Source: Lachnospiraceae bacterium
Lineage (GTDB): Bacteria > Bacillota > Clostridia > Lachnospirales > Lachnospiraceae
Direction of reading: 5' to 3'
Length of the DNA: 44,026 nt
Assembly (NCBI GenBank): GCA_014804245.1
Contig: JAAVAE010000014.1
Location: 126,680 to 170,705, forward strand
A program made the position numbers and the translations under genes. Below, piece by piece: positions 38,218-44,026 of this stretch; positions within the stretch are counted from its first letter, which is position 1, and every line of letters starts with the position of its first letter. The notes under the pieces are model-generated. The model worked only from the letters and a program-made list of their open reading frames with translations. It searched no databases and was not told where the DNA came from.

Positions 38218-39768
38218 GTGAGTGCATTTACGTTATCGGAAATGAAGGTTGAAACATCGATAGTTATAGAAAATATACAGGTGTTTTGGATGGAAGCCAA
38301 GAGGAATGAGCATATCATGATAGGTTTGGAGGGGCTGGTGTCCCGGGAGGCTTTGGATGAGGTGTTGGTTGGGGCGCTGGAGGATGTTGATTTGAAGGTT
38401 TGGGTAGGTAATAGGTTGCTTTTTTCGGGGGTTATTAGGGAGGTTGGGATTACTCATGAAGGGCAGGAGCATCGGGTGGTGGTGCGGGGGATTTCTAAAA
38501 CCGCGCAGATGGATTATGAAAAGAAAAGTCGTACTTTTCAGAATGTGAATAGGACTTATCAGGATGTGATGAGGGAAGTTTTGGGAGGCGTCGATGGGGC
38601 GGACTTAAGGTTTTATGTGAAGGATCGGGAAATTGGAAGTCCTCTTTATCAATTGGAGGAAACGGACTGGGAGTTTGTAAGGCGTCTGGCAAGTCATTTG
38701 GAGACTTCGATTGTGCCGGTTGTTATAAATGGCGGAGCGGCAGTCAGTGTTGGGCTTTTGGAGGGAAGGACTTATGAACAGGAAAATATGGATGCTTATG
38801 AGGAAAGGGTCTGGTTCGATAAGGAAAGGGGAAGCCGGTGCCTAATCATCAGCGCCTATGAGGATTTGGAGCTTGGGGATAGGGTAAAGTGGAAAGGGCT
38901 TCTTTACGCGGTTATAGAAAAAAGCTGTAGTCTTGATAAAGGATTGCTGTGTTTTAAATATACGCTTACATCAAAGGAGGCATTTGCTGCAAAGAGATAT
39001 GAAAATCCTCATGCAGTAGGCAGGCTTCTGGCGGCAAGGGTATTAGAAACGAAGGATGAACAGGTGAAGGTAAAATTTGATATAGACAAGGCTCAGCCGA
39101 CCAAGGAGGCTTATTGGTATCCTTGGAGACCGGAGGTGGGAAATCTTATGTACTGTATGCCGGAGGCAGGTGAACTGGTTTATATTCATTTGGGCGATTA
39201 TTCGGAAAAAGAAGAGAGGGCAGTATATGGTGTACATGGAAACGGTGAGGGGCATCCTGAAATGCTGGCTGCCCATAGGTATTTCACCACGGTTGACAAT
39301 AAACGGATGTATCTGCAGCCGGAACAGATGGGATTTAAAGATTTAAAGCAGACAAGCCCGCTGGAAGTGTCGCTGGCGGATGATTCGGGAATCAGTGCAA
39401 TAAGTAACAAGAAAATCGTGATTTGGGCAAAAGATACAGTAGGCATTAAGGGCAATAATGTATTCTTTCAGGCGCCTAAGGAAGTGTCTTTAGTGAGACG
39501 GGATGGTTTCTCGCCCACGGTTATCAATATGTGCAATGGGTTTGATTCCGTAGGCGCCACAAATACTGTGTCGGTGGGAGGAGCAGAAAAGGCGGAATTT
39601 CCGCTGTTTGGTGAGTATAAACGGGAAGAGGGGAAGGAGTGGGGGCTGGACGGAATAGAAATGAAGATTATGGCATCCACTCCGTGCGGCGGATTGAAAA
39701 GCGGAATTGAAAAGCAGATACGGGGAGTCCAGGTGAACAGAATTGGAGGAGAAGGGGATTATGAGTAA
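38218..39768 (+). CDS. VgrG/Pvc8-like contractile injection spike protein 1
   Basis: A 516-residue protein with the VgrG plan: a gp27-like hub (about 1-270; note RTYQDVMREVLGG and LYQLEETDWEFVRRLASHL, the hallmark VgrG segment), then a gp5-like OB-fold (VKVKFDIDKAQPTKEAYWYPW to GELVYIHLGDYSEKEERAVYG), then a short beta-rich C-terminal part (KIVIWAKDTVGIKGNN). A GTG start at 38218 follows GGGAGGGG. The next gene starts inside its end (8-base overlap). VgrG trimers tip phage tails, type VI secretion systems and extracellular injection systems. The sequence is too diverged to assign a subtype. No toxin domain is fused. Confidence 0.82.
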   Translation: MSAFTLSEMKVETSIVIENIQVFWMEAKRNEHIMIGLEGLVSREALDEVLVGALEDVDLKVWVGNRLLFSGVIREVGITHEGQEHRVVVRGISKTAQMDYEKKSRTFQNVNRTYQDVMREVLGGVDGADLRFYVKDREIGSPLYQLEETDWEFVRRLASHLETSIVPVVINGGAAVSVGLLEGRTYEQENMDAYEERVWFDKERGSRCLIISAYEDLELGDRVKWKGLLYAVIEKSCSLDKGLLCFKYTLTSKEAFAAKRYENPHAVGRLLAARVLETKDEQVKVKFDIDKAQPTKEAYWYPWRPEVGNLMYCMPEAGELVYIHLGDYSEKEERAVYGVHGNGEGHPEMLAAHRYFTTVDNKRMYLQPEQMGFKDLKQTSPLEVSLADDSGISAISNKKIVIWAKDTVGIKGNNVFFQAPKEVSLVRRDGFSPTVINMCNGFDSVGATNTVSVGGAEKAEFPLFGEYKREEGKEWGLDGIEMKIMASTPCGGLKSGIEKQIRGVQVNRIGGEGDYE

Positions 39769-39964
39769 GCACATTAAGACGGGCGGAGTAGGAAAAAGTC
39801 CGGCAATAGAAAAAATGAATCAGCTGAATGAAATCAGCAGCCGGGTGCAGGCTGCATCCATGCTGGAGAAAAAGGCTTTTGAGGCGCAGAATGAAAAAGC
39901 GATGCAGGAACTTTTAAAAAGAAAGCAGATTATAGAGGAATTTCATATTTGTTTTACCAGATAG
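39761..39964 (+). CDS. Small helical protein of the VgrG operon
   Basis: 67 residues, starting MSKHIKTGGVGKSPAIEKMN, with a charged helix (about 22-60) that could form a coiled coil. The start at 39761 overlaps the end of the first VgrG-like gene and has GGAGAAGGGG as RBS. It may be an adaptor or structural subunit of the same complex; no family recognised. Confidence 0.6.
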   Translation: MSKHIKTGGVGKSPAIEKMNQLNEISSRVQAASMLEKKAFEAQNEKAMQELLKRKQIIEEFHICFTR

Positions 39965-39985
39965 AGAAAGGGTGGGGTTGCTTTG

Positions 39986-40516
39986 GTGAAGACGATATTT
40001 GAAAAGGAAACGGAAGGTTGTGGACAGGATGATTTACAGTTATCTATGTGGGAGTTGCATGATAAACAACTTGTAATAGAGCTTCCAGAAGGATTTGAAG
40101 AGATGGATGAAGAAAGGAAAGAAGAAAATTATCCTTTATCAGGCAGACCGGAAATGATTGTGGAGGATGGAGAGGGCAAAGTACAGATAACCTTTCAGTT
40201 TTTTCAGAAGGTGATGGGAACAGAGGAGACAAGAGACGTAACCGATCAAGTCCGTGAACTGATGGAGAGTACCTATGTACAATATCAAACTTCTCAAATT
40301 TATCTGGATACGGATGGAGAAATTCCGGTTGGATGGTTCCTTATGCATATGAATGATATTGAGAAGGAGCATATCAAGGCAGTATTTTCTATAAAGAAGC
40401 ATATGGTGCTTTTAACCTTGACTTATCCCACAGAAGAAAATTGGAAATGGCGTGTTGCAAAAGATTATATTTTTGCTTCGATTAAGGAGGGAAATCATGG
40501 AACAGGTTTCAAATGA
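39986..40516 (+). CDS. DcrB/Eag-like (DUF1795-type) protein 1
   Basis: About 176 residues, no signal peptide. Two similar halves are not evident, but the beta-alpha pattern LVIELPEGFEEMDEE, YPLSGRPEMIVEDGEGKVQITFQFF, then VRELMESTY and an amphipathic C-terminal strand IKAVFSIKKHMVLLTLTYP resembles the DcrB/DUF1795 fold. That fold is used by Eag chaperones that stabilise effector transmembrane segments next to VgrG. Start is GTG 39986 (TTG 39983 possible) after GGTGGGG. It overlaps the next gene by 20 bases. The fold call is by eye and should be treated as moderate. Confidence 0.6.
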   Translation: MKTIFEKETEGCGQDDLQLSMWELHDKQLVIELPEGFEEMDEERKEENYPLSGRPEMIVEDGEGKVQITFQFFQKVMGTEETRDVTDQVRELMESTYVQYQTSQIYLDTDGEIPVGWFLMHMNDIEKEHIKAVFSIKKHMVLLTLTYPTEENWKWRVAKDYIFASIKEGNHGTGFK

Positions 40517-41060
40517 TGATTTTGACTTTATTCTGCTTCGTATGAAAAAGAAATTTACTGTAAAGCCAGAGAAAAAAGGCAGAGAAAACGGAGGGGAAGG
40601 ACAGGATTTTGGGATGGGTTTTTCCCTTCGGGTGCCGGAGGAGTTTGAGCGGGCAGATGCAAAAAGAGCCTCTTGTCTTTTCTGGTCAGAAAAGCGTCCT
40701 CCAGTTATCCTGACTACCTCAAAGGGAAGAGAAGGACTTACCTTTCAGTTTTTTAATGGGGAAGTGGAAGGAGAATCGCTTTTGGAATGCAGTAAAATGA
40801 TAAAGCAACTGATTGAGCAGTTGGATGGGCGGTGTGTGTTCTACAGCGCAGGAGAAGAATCGGAGACTGTGTGGTTTGATTACAAAAGCTTTGCGGAAAA
40901 TGAGTGTGTCTATAATCTGGTTTTCCTGTTTCAGACCAGTACAAGGAAGGTGCTTGGAACCTTTTTCTGCTTGTTTGAAGAATATGATAAATGGAAACCG
41001 CAGGTATTGAAACTGCTTAAAACAATCAAGACAAAGGAGGAAGTTCATGAGGGATTATAA
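40497..41060 (+). CDS. DcrB/Eag-like (DUF1795-type) protein 2
   Basis: 187 residues from ATG 40497 (AAGGAGGG upstream). It shares with its neighbour the order of features: a beta segment FSLRVPEEFERADA, LFWSEKRPPVILTTSKGREGLTFQFFN, an amphipathic helix SKMIKQLIEQLDG, and the closing ECVYNLVFLFQTSTRKVLGTF and WKPQVLKLLKTIK. It is therefore a diverged paralogue. The closing helix is like that of the first (WKWRVAKDYIFASIK). Coding overlap is 20 bases with the gene before and 14 with the second VgrG-like gene, so synthesis is tightly coupled to the spike. Confidence 0.6.
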   Translation: MEQVSNDDFDFILLRMKKKFTVKPEKKGRENGGEGQDFGMGFSLRVPEEFERADAKRASCLFWSEKRPPVILTTSKGREGLTFQFFNGEVEGESLLECSKMIKQLIEQLDGRCVFYSAGEESETVWFDYKSFAENECVYNLVFLFQTSTRKVLGTFFCLFEEYDKWKPQVLKLLKTIKTKEEVHEGL

Positions 41061-42447
41061 TATTGCCGCTTCACCGTTATCTTTTCTTTCTGTTCTGGAC
41101 ATTCAGATGAAGGAGGAAGTGGGCGAACATGGAGTATTAACGATTACAGGATACATAGAGGATGCAGCGGAGGAGGAATATCTTTTCCGTCTTGCAGGAG
41201 ATGTCTGGGAAAAGATAGAAAAGGTGGGAATAGACGGAGAAAGAGAAACGATGTTCTGGGGAATAGTCATAGATTTTTCCATTGATTCGGGGTTTCATCA
41301 GAAGCAGATGACCTTGAAACTTGCCACTGGAAGCTGGCTGATGGATCAGGAAAAGCATCTTAGATCCTATCAGGACGGAAGGATTACCTATGAACAGATT
41401 TTCAGGGCCATTGGAAAAGGGTATCCGGATGGAGACATGATTTTTACCAGTTCTCTAGGAGACGCGGCGGAAAACCTTGTACTTCAATACCATGAGACGG
41501 ACTGGCAGTTCTTAAAACGGCTTGCCAGCAGAAAACATAAATTCCTGACACCGGAATCCAGAATAAAAGGAACAAAATTCACTTATGATCTGCCCAGGGG
41601 TCAAAGCGTGGAATTTCCAGAACATCAGAAGTATACTGTAAAAAAAGAACTGGACGAATATAGGCGAAAGAAGAGCGGCGGATTGTCGCCCCTTTATGAG
41701 TATGATTTCCTGGTTTATATCGTACAGTGCAGAGACAATCACAGGATTGGAGATTATATGACCATTATGGGAAGGGAGTGGTATATTTACAAGATTCAAA
41801 GCCGCTTCATTGGAGGCGAGATGCTTCATGACTGCTATCTCAAGCTGAAAAGAGGCATAGATACTTTAGAAATCAGGCAAAGTGAAATGACAGGGGCATC
41901 CCTTGACGGAATCGTACAGAAAGTGAAAGAAGACAGGGTGCAGGTTGTAATTTTACAGGATGAAAATAAGCAGCAGGATATCAACATCTGGTATCCTTAT
42001 GCCACCGTTTATTCCACTCCCGATGGAACCGGCTGGTACTGCATGCCGGAGCCGGGAGATAAGGTGCGCCTTACGATTCCCGGCAGGGAGGAAAAGGATG
42101 CATTCGTCACAAGTTCTGTCCATATGGAAACGGACAGCGCTGACAGAAAGGATCCAAATGTAAAATCTCTTAAAAGCAAGTATCAGAAGGAAGTGCGCTT
42201 TACTCCGGATTCTATTGTGATAACCAACAATCAGGGAACGAAAATCGAGCTTACGGATAAAGAAGGAATCCATATCGTCAGTGCCAATTCCGTTATGCTT
42301 GAGGCTGCGGAAGACATGACGATTTTAAGCGATACAGGATCTTTGATCGTGGCAGGAACCTCTTTGGTTAATCTTCAGCAGGGAGAGACCGCCATCAATC
42401 TGGACAAGGGCATTGCTTTTACAGGAGGGGAACTAAAGATTCAGTAA
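41047..42447 (+). CDS. VgrG/Pvc8-like contractile injection spike protein 2
   Basis: 466 residues, clearly related to but different from the first spike gene. The hub domain (1 to about 290) includes LVLQYHETDWQFLKRLASRK, the VgrG hallmark, and GDYMTIMGREWYIYKIQSRF. The OB-fold (about 305-360) has RVQVVILQDENKQQDINIWY and CMPEPGDKVRL, the latter echoing CMPEAGELV of the first protein. The tail (KSKYQKEVRFTPDSIVITNN to LVNLQQGETAINLDKG) is a short beta helix-like rod of the gp5 type. ATG 41047 follows AAGGAGG. It overlaps the gene before by 14 bases. Confidence 0.82.
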   Translation: MRDYNIAASPLSFLSVLDIQMKEEVGEHGVLTITGYIEDAAEEEYLFRLAGDVWEKIEKVGIDGERETMFWGIVIDFSIDSGFHQKQMTLKLATGSWLMDQEKHLRSYQDGRITYEQIFRAIGKGYPDGDMIFTSSLGDAAENLVLQYHETDWQFLKRLASRKHKFLTPESRIKGTKFTYDLPRGQSVEFPEHQKYTVKKELDEYRRKKSGGLSPLYEYDFLVYIVQCRDNHRIGDYMTIMGREWYIYKIQSRFIGGEMLHDCYLKLKRGIDTLEIRQSEMTGASLDGIVQKVKEDRVQVVILQDENKQQDINIWYPYATVYSTPDGTGWYCMPEPGDKVRLTIPGREEKDAFVTSSVHMETDSADRKDPNVKSLKSKYQKEVRFTPDSIVITNNQGTKIELTDKEGIHIVSANSVMLEAAEDMTILSDTGSLIVAGTSLVNLQQGETAINLDKGIAFTGGELKIQ

Positions 42448-42454
42448 GAGAAAG

Positions 42455-43090
42455 ATGGGTGCGGACATGATCATGCTAAGGATTTCCGAAAGAAGAGAAA
42501 AATTGCTTCTTGCGGCGGAGGAACTGCAAAGAGAAAAGTTTGAAAAGAGCATACGGGCATTAGAACAAGAATATCAAAAAGAGGAAAACCGCAAGGCGGT
42601 GATACAGGTATTTGAAGAACTGGCATCCTCTTGGAATCCGGTTTCTGTGGGCATAGAAAATAAAAAGAAAGCGGCAAGTCTTGGTATTACTTATCTCCTC
42701 AGCAGTATATTGATGGGGACTTATGAAATGAGACTATATCTAATGGGCGAAGAATTTTGGATGGAAGAGGCGCCTTTAGAGGCGGTATGGAGACCGGCAC
42801 ATTTCTATGAACATTTTGAAGAAGATATTGAATTTATCATAAAAAAATTGGAGGAAAGCTTTCCCAGAATGTGCAGGGCGGAGAAGGATGCGATAAAACT
42901 TAAATGTGCAGATTACTATCTGGCGGCAGTCTGTAAGCTGTGCAGGGACATGGGGGCGGAAATCGTGGAAAGCAAAGGCTTTCAGGAAATGGAGAAGAGG
43001 GATGATTTCTTTCTCTTCTTCGGAGGATTTCGGAAGGAAGGAGAAATCCTTTGGCGGATGAATGGAAACAGTGGCGGAAAGGATAAGTGA
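42455..43090 (+). CDS. Helical hypothetical protein of the VgrG operon
   Basis: 211 residues, mostly helical, with a charged N-terminal helix (ERREKLLLAAEELQREKFEK, continuing) and a C-terminal domain with KCADYYLAAVCKLCRDMGAE. No signal peptide or membrane segment. The AGAGAAAG before ATG 42455 is a weak RBS; seven bases separate it from the second spike gene. No family recognised. Its placement suggests a structural, adaptor or chaperone role in the same complex. Confidence 0.6.
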   Translation: MGADMIMLRISERREKLLLAAEELQREKFEKSIRALEQEYQKEENRKAVIQVFEELASSWNPVSVGIENKKKAASLGITYLLSSILMGTYEMRLYLMGEEFWMEEAPLEAVWRPAHFYEHFEEDIEFIIKKLEESFPRMCRAEKDAIKLKCADYYLAAVCKLCRDMGAEIVESKGFQEMEKRDDFFLFFGGFRKEGEILWRMNGNSGGKDK

Positions 43091-43094
43091 GCGG

Positions 43095-43541
43095 ATGGAA
43101 TATTTTGTACTGAAACCTCAATGGGGAAATCCAAGCCCGGAAATCACTTCCTGGTATGGAAAACTGGACGAGAGAAAGCTGACCAGAGAGCACTACAGGG
43201 AACTGCCCCAGAATTTTCTGCTGGATATGAAAACCGGAATGGATATTCTGTATCCAGATATTCTGATGGTTCCCTTTTTTCTGGTGTCAAGAGAAGTGCG
43301 GAATGTAATTCGGATGTATGACGAGGACATGCCTTTTTTGCATGTGATTTTATTTGATGCTAGGCAGGGGGAAAATGTGTTTTATTATTTACCGATACTT
43401 GCCGAGGGAAATGAGGACCGCCGGGAGGTTATTTATTGCACCCAGAACAGGGAACAGCGGGAAATAAGAATACGACTTGATCTGGCGGAGAGCCTGCTTG
43501 CAAGAGGGGCAGAAGGAATGGAACTTGAGAAGATACTGTGA
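43095..43541 (+). CDS. Hypothetical protein of the VgrG operon, weakly Imm11-like
   Basis: 148 residues from ATG 43095, four bases after the previous stop (ATG 43062 is in frame but lacks an RBS). The order of elements, MEYFVLKPQWG, then NFLLDMKTGMDILYPDILMVPFFLVSREVRNVI and FLHVILFDARQGENVFYYLP (each given in part), recalls the Imm11/DUF1629-type fold in which a SERLKD-like helix is followed by a strand pair. That similarity is slight. An immunity protein would fit a polymorphic-toxin operon; a structural role is equally possible. Confidence 0.5.
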   Translation: MEYFVLKPQWGNPSPEITSWYGKLDERKLTREHYRELPQNFLLDMKTGMDILYPDILMVPFFLVSREVRNVIRMYDEDMPFLHVILFDARQGENVFYYLPILAEGNEDRREVIYCTQNREQREIRIRLDLAESLLARGAEGMELEKIL

Positions 43542-43577
43542 AAAATCTGTATAAAGGAAAGGGGAACGAAGGAGAAG

Positions 43578-44026
43578 ATGGGAAAGGATTATCTGGTAAA
43601 CGGAGCGGGGCTGATCTGTGTAAATGGAACCGGCGTCAAAAGATTATGCGTCAAGAAGAAACGCGGCTATAAGGAAAACGGAAAGGAAAAAGCCAACTGC
43701 AGGGACTGTGAGGCAGGGATCAACATCCCGTATTTTGACAGCTGCAGGAAGAATGAAGAGACCCATATGTGCGACGGCTACATGGAGCTGGAAGAGCGGT
43801 GGGAGAATACGGAAGGCATGTCCTGCCAGATGGAGAGGATCAATGGCGAGGAAGCCATCACCATGAGCAGCGTGCTGGTGTGCAAAAAGGGCGGGCTCAT
43901 CCTGCCTGTCACTTCCGGCCAGGGGGATAAGATACCGCTGATCCCGGCGCTGTTCGCCGCCAGATATGCGAAAGCCTTCTTCTGGGCAAAGGGGAAAGGC
44001 TTAGGCTGCCAGATCTTCGGCTGCGA
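43578..44026 (+). CDS. DUF4280 PAAR-like protein, 5' part (cut by window edge)
   Basis: Readable for 149 codons with no stop before the window ends. It starts MGKDYLVNGAGLICVNGTG, the usual DUF4280 opening in which a PAAR-like tip sits at the apex of VgrG spikes. Conserved cysteines recur (CRDCEAG, then SCRKNEETHMCDGYM), and VLVCKKGGLILPVTSGQ is the second DUF4280 half. Family members often carry C-terminal toxin domains, which would lie beyond this window. RBS GGAGAAG directly precedes the ATG at 43578. From about 43700 the base composition becomes more GC-rich than in the rest of the operon. A plus-strand frame at 43624-43866 is only a shadow. Confidence 0.78.
   Translation, partial: MGKDYLVNGAGLICVNGTGVKRLCVKKKRGYKENGKEKANCRDCEAGINIPYFDSCRKNEETHMCDGYMELEERWENTEGMSCQMERINGEEAITMSSVLVCKKGGLILPVTSGQGDKIPLIPALFAARYAKAFFWAKGKGLGCQIFGC

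Follow-up and report, generated by a model that had tools for sequence, protein, structure and literature searches.

The last part of a 44,026-nucleotide stretch of DNA from a Lachnospiraceae bacterium (the window, whose end is also the end of contig C14) carries an operon for injection spikes, and the question raised by this locus is which machine such spikes would serve in a Gram-positive bacterium. The possibility of a phage-like translocation system in these bacteria was raised in 2016 by a paper that names no machine (PMC5349215), and the same idea was repeated in 2021 (PMC8651086), because Firmicutes have genes of the Phage_GPD family next to DUF4280 genes, with no genes of extracellular contractile injection systems (eCIS) or of the type VI secretion system (T6SS) reported nearby. 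The window holds the same pair of families, DUF4280 (PAAR_H) and Phage_GPD, in the same phylum, whereas here a candidate machine has been identified. Most likely, the operon is an island that provides spikes and effector loading for a contractile injection machine found in Bacillota, which would have its core on another contig (C9) of this genome, and this C9-type cluster is offered as a candidate answer to the puzzle of both papers. For some Firmicutes, PMC8213781 reports eCIS of the conventional kind, with a gene set that differs from that of the C9-type cluster, and no published description of the latter was found in a literature search that left preprints and most subscription journals outside.

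The argument starts from what is seen at the level of sequence or fold, namely VgrG, DUF4280, a tube family, a wedge fold, synteny and co-occurrence. The operon (38218-44026) consists of eight plus-strand open reading frames, overlapping or almost abutting, which encode two VgrG-type spikes, two DcrB/Eag-like candidates, the proteins x and g6, a cut DUF4280 protein and a doubtful frame of 73 amino acids (aa). The segments ETDWEFVRRLASHL and ETDWQFLKRLASRK, which the original prediction had quoted as VgrG hallmarks, are both present in the translations. VgrG1 (38218..39768, 516 aa) and VgrG2 (41047..42447, 466 aa) match the Pfam family Phage_GPD above its cut-off (E-values of 5.5e-8 and 2.2e-8), and VgrG2 also matches TIGR01646 (vgr_GE) at 3.5e-11, under the cut-off of that family. 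A profile of 13 sequences, VgrG1 included, reaches a solved T6SS VgrG (8gra, 3.9e-19) as well as the spikes of eCIS (7aef at 2.1e-18, Pvc8 and Afp8), and by these profile matches both large proteins are members of the VgrG, or gp27-gp5, spike family and do not fall outside its fold. The DUF4280 domain of the last gene (43578..44026) is clear (PF14107, 1.1e-10). This PAAR-like domain has four conserved cysteines (PMC5349215), and the four corresponding columns, kept in 24-26 of 26 aligned rows, are all present in the window protein. The gene is incomplete, with 149 or more residues, because window and contig stop at 44026, and the whole protein may carry a C-terminal effector domain. The spike-and-tip operon of the original prediction is thus confirmed in its frames, VgrG segments and DUF4280 tip, whereas its OB-folds are less firm, with a match slightly below the cut-off in VgrG2 (2.5e-4) and a marginal one in VgrG1 (0.085).

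Searches of the source genome, a bin (G000) that is 59.7% complete, found no place in the window matching the C9-type sheath, the C9-type tube or the phage-type sheath family, in agreement with the absence of sheath and tube noted earlier. A search with VgrG2 matched C14, C30 and C9, in six stretches altogether, so that the idea of a toxin-delivery module in a Firmicute, distal to its apparatus or sharing it, now finds both a candidate core (C9) and another module (C30). On C9, a single strand encodes a VWA protein, a protein of 720 aa regarded as the putative sheath subunit, two tube-like proteins (141-142 aa) and DnaJ, together with two FHA proteins, two PP2C-like proteins (the larger with a weak PP2C match, 0.016), an Hsp70-like protein of 839 aa, proteins of 427, 251, 257 and 215 aa, and a VgrG. 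The Hsp70 label of the C9 protein, itself without a match, is taken from its relatives, which match HSP70 at 0.017 in locus L159 (under the cut-off) and SrfB at 4.1e-7 in L158. The tube proteins are Hcp/TssD-like, with Pfam TssD (Hcp) as the closest family: 37 of 45 members match it, the best at 9.9e-5, with member 1 by itself under the curated cut-off. Compared with an Hcp profile from Proteobacteria, the tube family ranked only 9th of 55.

A scan of public genome contigs with a profile of the 720-aa protein confirmed 371 of 455 candidate stretches, and the locus counts given from here on refer to the best 80 of these 371, with reading frames called mechanically in flanks no longer than 10 kb. 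Their record titles include Lachnospiraceae, Clostridium, Paenibacillus, Brevibacillus, Pelosinus and others. Besides the candidate sheath gene (80 of 80), these loci contain PP2C (79), tube (75), Hsp70-like (74) and g4 (71) genes, two FHA families (71 and 66), VWA (65), g3 (61) and DnaJ (49); the tube gene lies directly behind the candidate sheath gene on the same strand in 75 loci, and candidate sheath, tube, PP2C, Hsp70-like protein and g4 occur together in 67. In the one-contig genome G533, from another class of Bacillota, machine genes and spike cassette form one operon in the order sheath, tube, DnaJ, FHA, FHA, PP2C, PP2C, g4, g3, Hsp70-like and g8, followed by Eag, VgrG, a pentapeptide-repeat protein with an x-like region, g6 and DUF4280. 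The operon of G304 is nearly identical, with no DnaJ recognised, and therefore the machine operon of both genomes closes downstream with a cassette of the window type (Eag-VgrG-x-g6-DUF4280).

The co-occurrence of machine and spikes points in the same direction. Among 200 genomes of the family, one for each of 200 genera and including that of the window, the searches with candidate sheath and VgrG2 match the identical 13 and no others (Fisher test, 1.1e-20), a value to be read loosely because the genomes are related and a VgrG gene belonging to the core is counted as well. At the level of the phylum (398 genomes), the candidate sheath is present in 13 genomes and DUF4280 in 19, the latter being found in 12 of the 13 genomes with the sheath against 7 of the 385 without it (p 2.3e-17); in the thirteenth, G578, direct scanning gave a weak match to DUF4280 next to the core. 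As a separate observation, G172 gives two sheath and six tube matches on C1, C15 and C11, where the tube pairs of C11 and C15 score identically and may be one pair assembled twice.

Several results limit the reading of C9 as a contractile core. Pfam searches of the 15 proteins of the cluster recognised none of gp25, a gp18-type or phage-type sheath, an AAA+ ATPase or baseplate J, so that the search for the apparatus, suggested together with the original prediction, succeeded for tube, candidate sheath and wedge and failed in the cluster for gp25, gp18-type sheath and AAA+; nor was any membrane complex of the TssJLM type recognised there. For the wedge protein, a confident AlphaFold model has a T6SS TssF chain as its best structural alignment, a match that is moderate and at the level of the fold and gives the cluster a TssF-like wedge fold. 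The 720-aa protein shows no fold or family match, its AlphaFold model (from 32 sequences that share 63-72% identity with the first of them) is poor, and among 55 families it ranks 17th in similarity to TssC and 9th in similarity to phage sheath. The g4 family ranked 21st of 55 against TssF, and its model, compared with BFVD, gave nothing at an E-value of 0.001 and a gp6-like wedge protein at rank 2 (0.019, probability 0.23). Profile alignments by HHalign of 13 core families with ten T6SS profiles gave none above 15% probability, PDB profile searches with the Hsp70-like, g4 and g3 families gave nothing usable, and equivalents of TssG or TssK were not found.

The alternative that survives best, possible though clearly behind an anchored machine, is that of a contractile structure released by lysis as a free particle, in the manner of eCIS, or acting inside its producer. 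Contractile systems of other Gram-positive bacteria are described as particles or as cytoplasmic (PMC8505568 and PMC12237407), and the missing TssJLM-type complex fits such a mode. On the other hand, a crude scan found hydrophobic segments in the VWA protein, one FHA protein and both PP2C proteins of C9 (it also flags VgrG1 and the 839-aa protein), which suggests a membrane-bound control and anchor module. Control by PP2C and FHA proteins is known from T6SS, where a PP2C gene and an FHA gene are annotated beside the T6SS genes, and the presence of several spike islands with one core resembles orphan vgrG islands; both features favour a machine held in the cell.

A reading in which the 720-aa protein is no sheath, and the machine a tail-like or scaffold structure that does not contract, is improbable. 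It draws on the lack of a fold or family match for that protein, whose comparison with a phage-sheath profile was not significant; neither was that of the known relative TssC, the method being too insensitive at this depth. Its 32 members, scanned singly, hit T6SS families once each and weakly (TssG 0.22, VipA 5.4). Foldseek with the poor model returned unrelated folds only and was disregarded. Against a non-contractile structure stand the constant place of the tube gene behind the 720-aa gene, the mean column identity of the 720-aa protein (77%, above 70% for the tube and 45-49% for the Hsp70-like, g4 and g3 families, on partly different sequence sets) and its top place among 55 families compared with TssB, where two segments in matching order score 20.9 and 20.5 and the next family 19.6, despite the lower ranks already given. 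Finally, a prophage or R-type bacteriocin module, working with the phage-type sheath found elsewhere in the genome (PF17482, 4.8e-28, at C3:23619-23909, perhaps a prophage), is very hard to sustain in spite of the phage baseplate-hub (GPD) fold of VgrG, since that sheath family is present in 7 of the 14 sheath-bearing genomes examined against 18 of 18 genomes for the C9-type tube, and since neither the candidate sheath nor VgrG2 has a match in 50,697 phage records, while an IMG/VR pattern scan gave no candidate sheath and one distant VgrG of 23% identity. PHROG gave no significant match for ten proteins, and the neighbour of the operon on the other strand is a mutS2-like gene (recognised by sight), so that the prophage context that would have spoken against the original prediction is not evident. 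A search of 72,556 plasmid records likewise found no relative of the candidate sheath.

The spike island with its core on C9 can then be compared with known machines. The system of Bacillota resembles T6SS in its VgrG spike, PAAR-like tip, Hcp/TssD-type tube and TssF-like wedge fold, and also in its FHA and PP2C partners, its candidate RHS and AHH-nuclease cargo and the presence of several spike islands per core. It differs in that Pfam recognises no TssC, TssE, TssG, TssK, TssJLM or ClpV among the 15 C9 proteins, a negative that leaves room for remote equivalents of TssJLM and ClpV, in that the candidate sheath is one large protein, and in the Hsp70/SrfB-like, DnaJ and VWA proteins of the cluster and its Bacillota host. 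The family of TssE and gp25 (PF04965) is likewise missing from 11 of the 14 sheath-bearing genomes examined, three of those 11 being single contigs. With eCIS (Afp, PVC, AlgoCIS and the Streptomyces CIS) it shares a spike of the VgrG/Pvc8 type and a gp6-type wedge protein, whereas the C9 cluster lacks, by Pfam, a phage-type sheath, gp25, baseplate J and an AAA ATPase, has no recognised fibre gene and carries the regulatory FHA/PP2C set. Judged by its sequences, the cluster is neither a recognisable part of a prophage nor a recognisable T6SS or eCIS, and we read it as a contractile injection class of Bacillota separate from the canonical T6SS and eCIS.

With less assurance than for the island itself, it seems rather probable that Bacillota possess their own class of contractile machine as a counterpart of T6SS, with a single-protein sheath, a TssF-like wedge, DnaJ and an Hsp70/SrfB-like protein in place of ClpV, control by kinase, phosphatase and FHA proteins, an Agr locus upstream in some lineages, and mobile VgrG-Eag-DUF4280 islands, one of them that of the window, which would load RHS or nuclease toxins. 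If so, many Bacillota of gut and soil would inject toxins with a contractile machine whose baseplate, and perhaps also whose recycling apparatus, differs from those of solved systems. The conserved cluster and its co-occurrence with DUF4280 tips make the question of Gram-positive injection directly testable in cultured species.

For such a machine, contraction, anchoring, secretion and target are proposals from the genes, and the same holds for the anchor and the energy source. A VgrG trimer would cap the Hcp/TssD-like tube and the DUF4280 protein would sharpen the tip and carry an effector, either fused or bound, whereas the DcrB/Eag-like proteins may hold or load it. The tube would sit on a baseplate of the TssF/gp6 type within a sheath of the 720-aa protein, whose contraction would push spike and toxin into a neighbouring cell. 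Firing would probably be governed by the FHA and PP2C proteins, joined in loci of Paenibacillus and Brevibacillus by a Hanks-type kinase, as in T6SS, and, more speculatively, DnaJ and the Hsp70/SrfB-like protein might run a chaperone cycle in the role of ClpV. Cargo could travel as VgrG-RHS fusions, as DUF4280 fusions or as proteins loaded by the Eag-like adaptors.

The two adaptor candidates of the window (39983..40516, 177 aa, and 40452..41060, 202 aa, with an internal ATG at 40497 as the likelier start, all on the plus strand, as are the frames below) belong to one family, members of which also adjoin VgrG in other genomes. Their original label stands as a remote similarity and is the weaker one: Pfam gives no DcrB/DUF1795 match, whereas a 17-member profile finds in the PDB DcrB (13cz) at 0.012 and a DUF1795 protein (6e8a) at 0.016, over some 110 residues, improved from 0.65 and 0.81 with 11 members, which suggests an Eag fold. 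Two designed proteins outrank both through a short repeated stretch, and such matches, seen with the Eag-like and g3 profiles, look like effects of composition or repeats. Protein x (42455..43090, 211 aa) has a family that sits between VgrG and g6 in other loci, with relatives found by phmmer on C30 (4.6e-7) and in L022 (1.4e-6), L019 (1e-5), L031 (6e-4) and L024 (0.0032), and the member of L160 widens it to L159 and others. Protein g6 (43062..43541, 159 aa), adaptor or immunity-like, has 16 aligned members from spike and core loci and adjoins DUF4280 in several of them; its profile matches Myxococcus MXAN_0049 (6a4c), presumably an immunity protein, at a non-significant 0.43, second of four weak PDB matches and the best bacterial one. 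By these alignments, x and g6 are conserved families of spike islands. The 73-aa frame (39743..39964) is an open frame alone, with no convincing match in family searches and no support as a gene.

Further islands and cargo candidates accompany these families. The island of C30 holds a VgrG, two Eag-like proteins, a second VgrG, x, g6 and a DUF4280 protein with a long C-terminal part, and additional DUF4280 genes lie on C19 and C36. This C30 protein (L006:3891-6158) has 429 aa, an unmatched C-terminal part and two small genes behind it, the layout of an effector with its immunity. In three divergent clusters, g6 is directly behind a DUF4280 protein that also matches the AHH nuclease (1.5e-4, 5.9e-4 and 3.5e-3, all under the Pfam cut-off, as is one of the three DUF4280 matches). 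In an observation of its own, the loci L158:7593-9380, L157:15552-17333 and L041:7384-9132 appear as a divergent minimal variant of the machine, with FHA, PP2C and DnaJ unrecognised and a DUF4280-AHH nuclease candidate and g6 preceding each. Adjoining the core, L035:7683-15011 and L039:7602-13973 encode giant proteins in which a VgrG head is joined to DUF6531 and to RHS repeats (2442 aa and 2124 aa, the latter truncated where its contig stops), and only the DUF6531 and RHS part was matched in a giant cut protein at L028:3-3749.

Regulatory genes recur upstream of the core. A kinase family precedes the candidate sheath gene in 15 loci, the seven listed among them being all from Paenibacillus or Brevibacillus, and its member in L108 (6224-7246) is a Ser/Thr kinase of the Hanks type, with the motifs HRDIKP and DFG read by eye, which together with PP2C and FHA would form a kinase-phosphatase-FHA set. 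At three places, L044:4968-7951, L055:4456-7566 and G111:C3:50491-51012, the VWA-sheath genes are immediately preceded by a quorum-sensing locus of the Agr type, where AgrB (PF04647), matched by coordinates, scores 5.7e-34, 2.2e-29 and 3.4e-25. Among the five genomes searched for AgrB, G162 has none and that of L056 has none at the cluster. Protein clusters of response-regulator, sensor and AgrB-like type occur in 29, 21 and 22 loci, and all three together in 14. Upstream of another candidate sheath gene (L029:8331-17747, in G088) are eight related open reading frames of 72-233 aa, possibly for immunity or surface proteins, and the two listed among them have an N-terminal hydrophobic segment.

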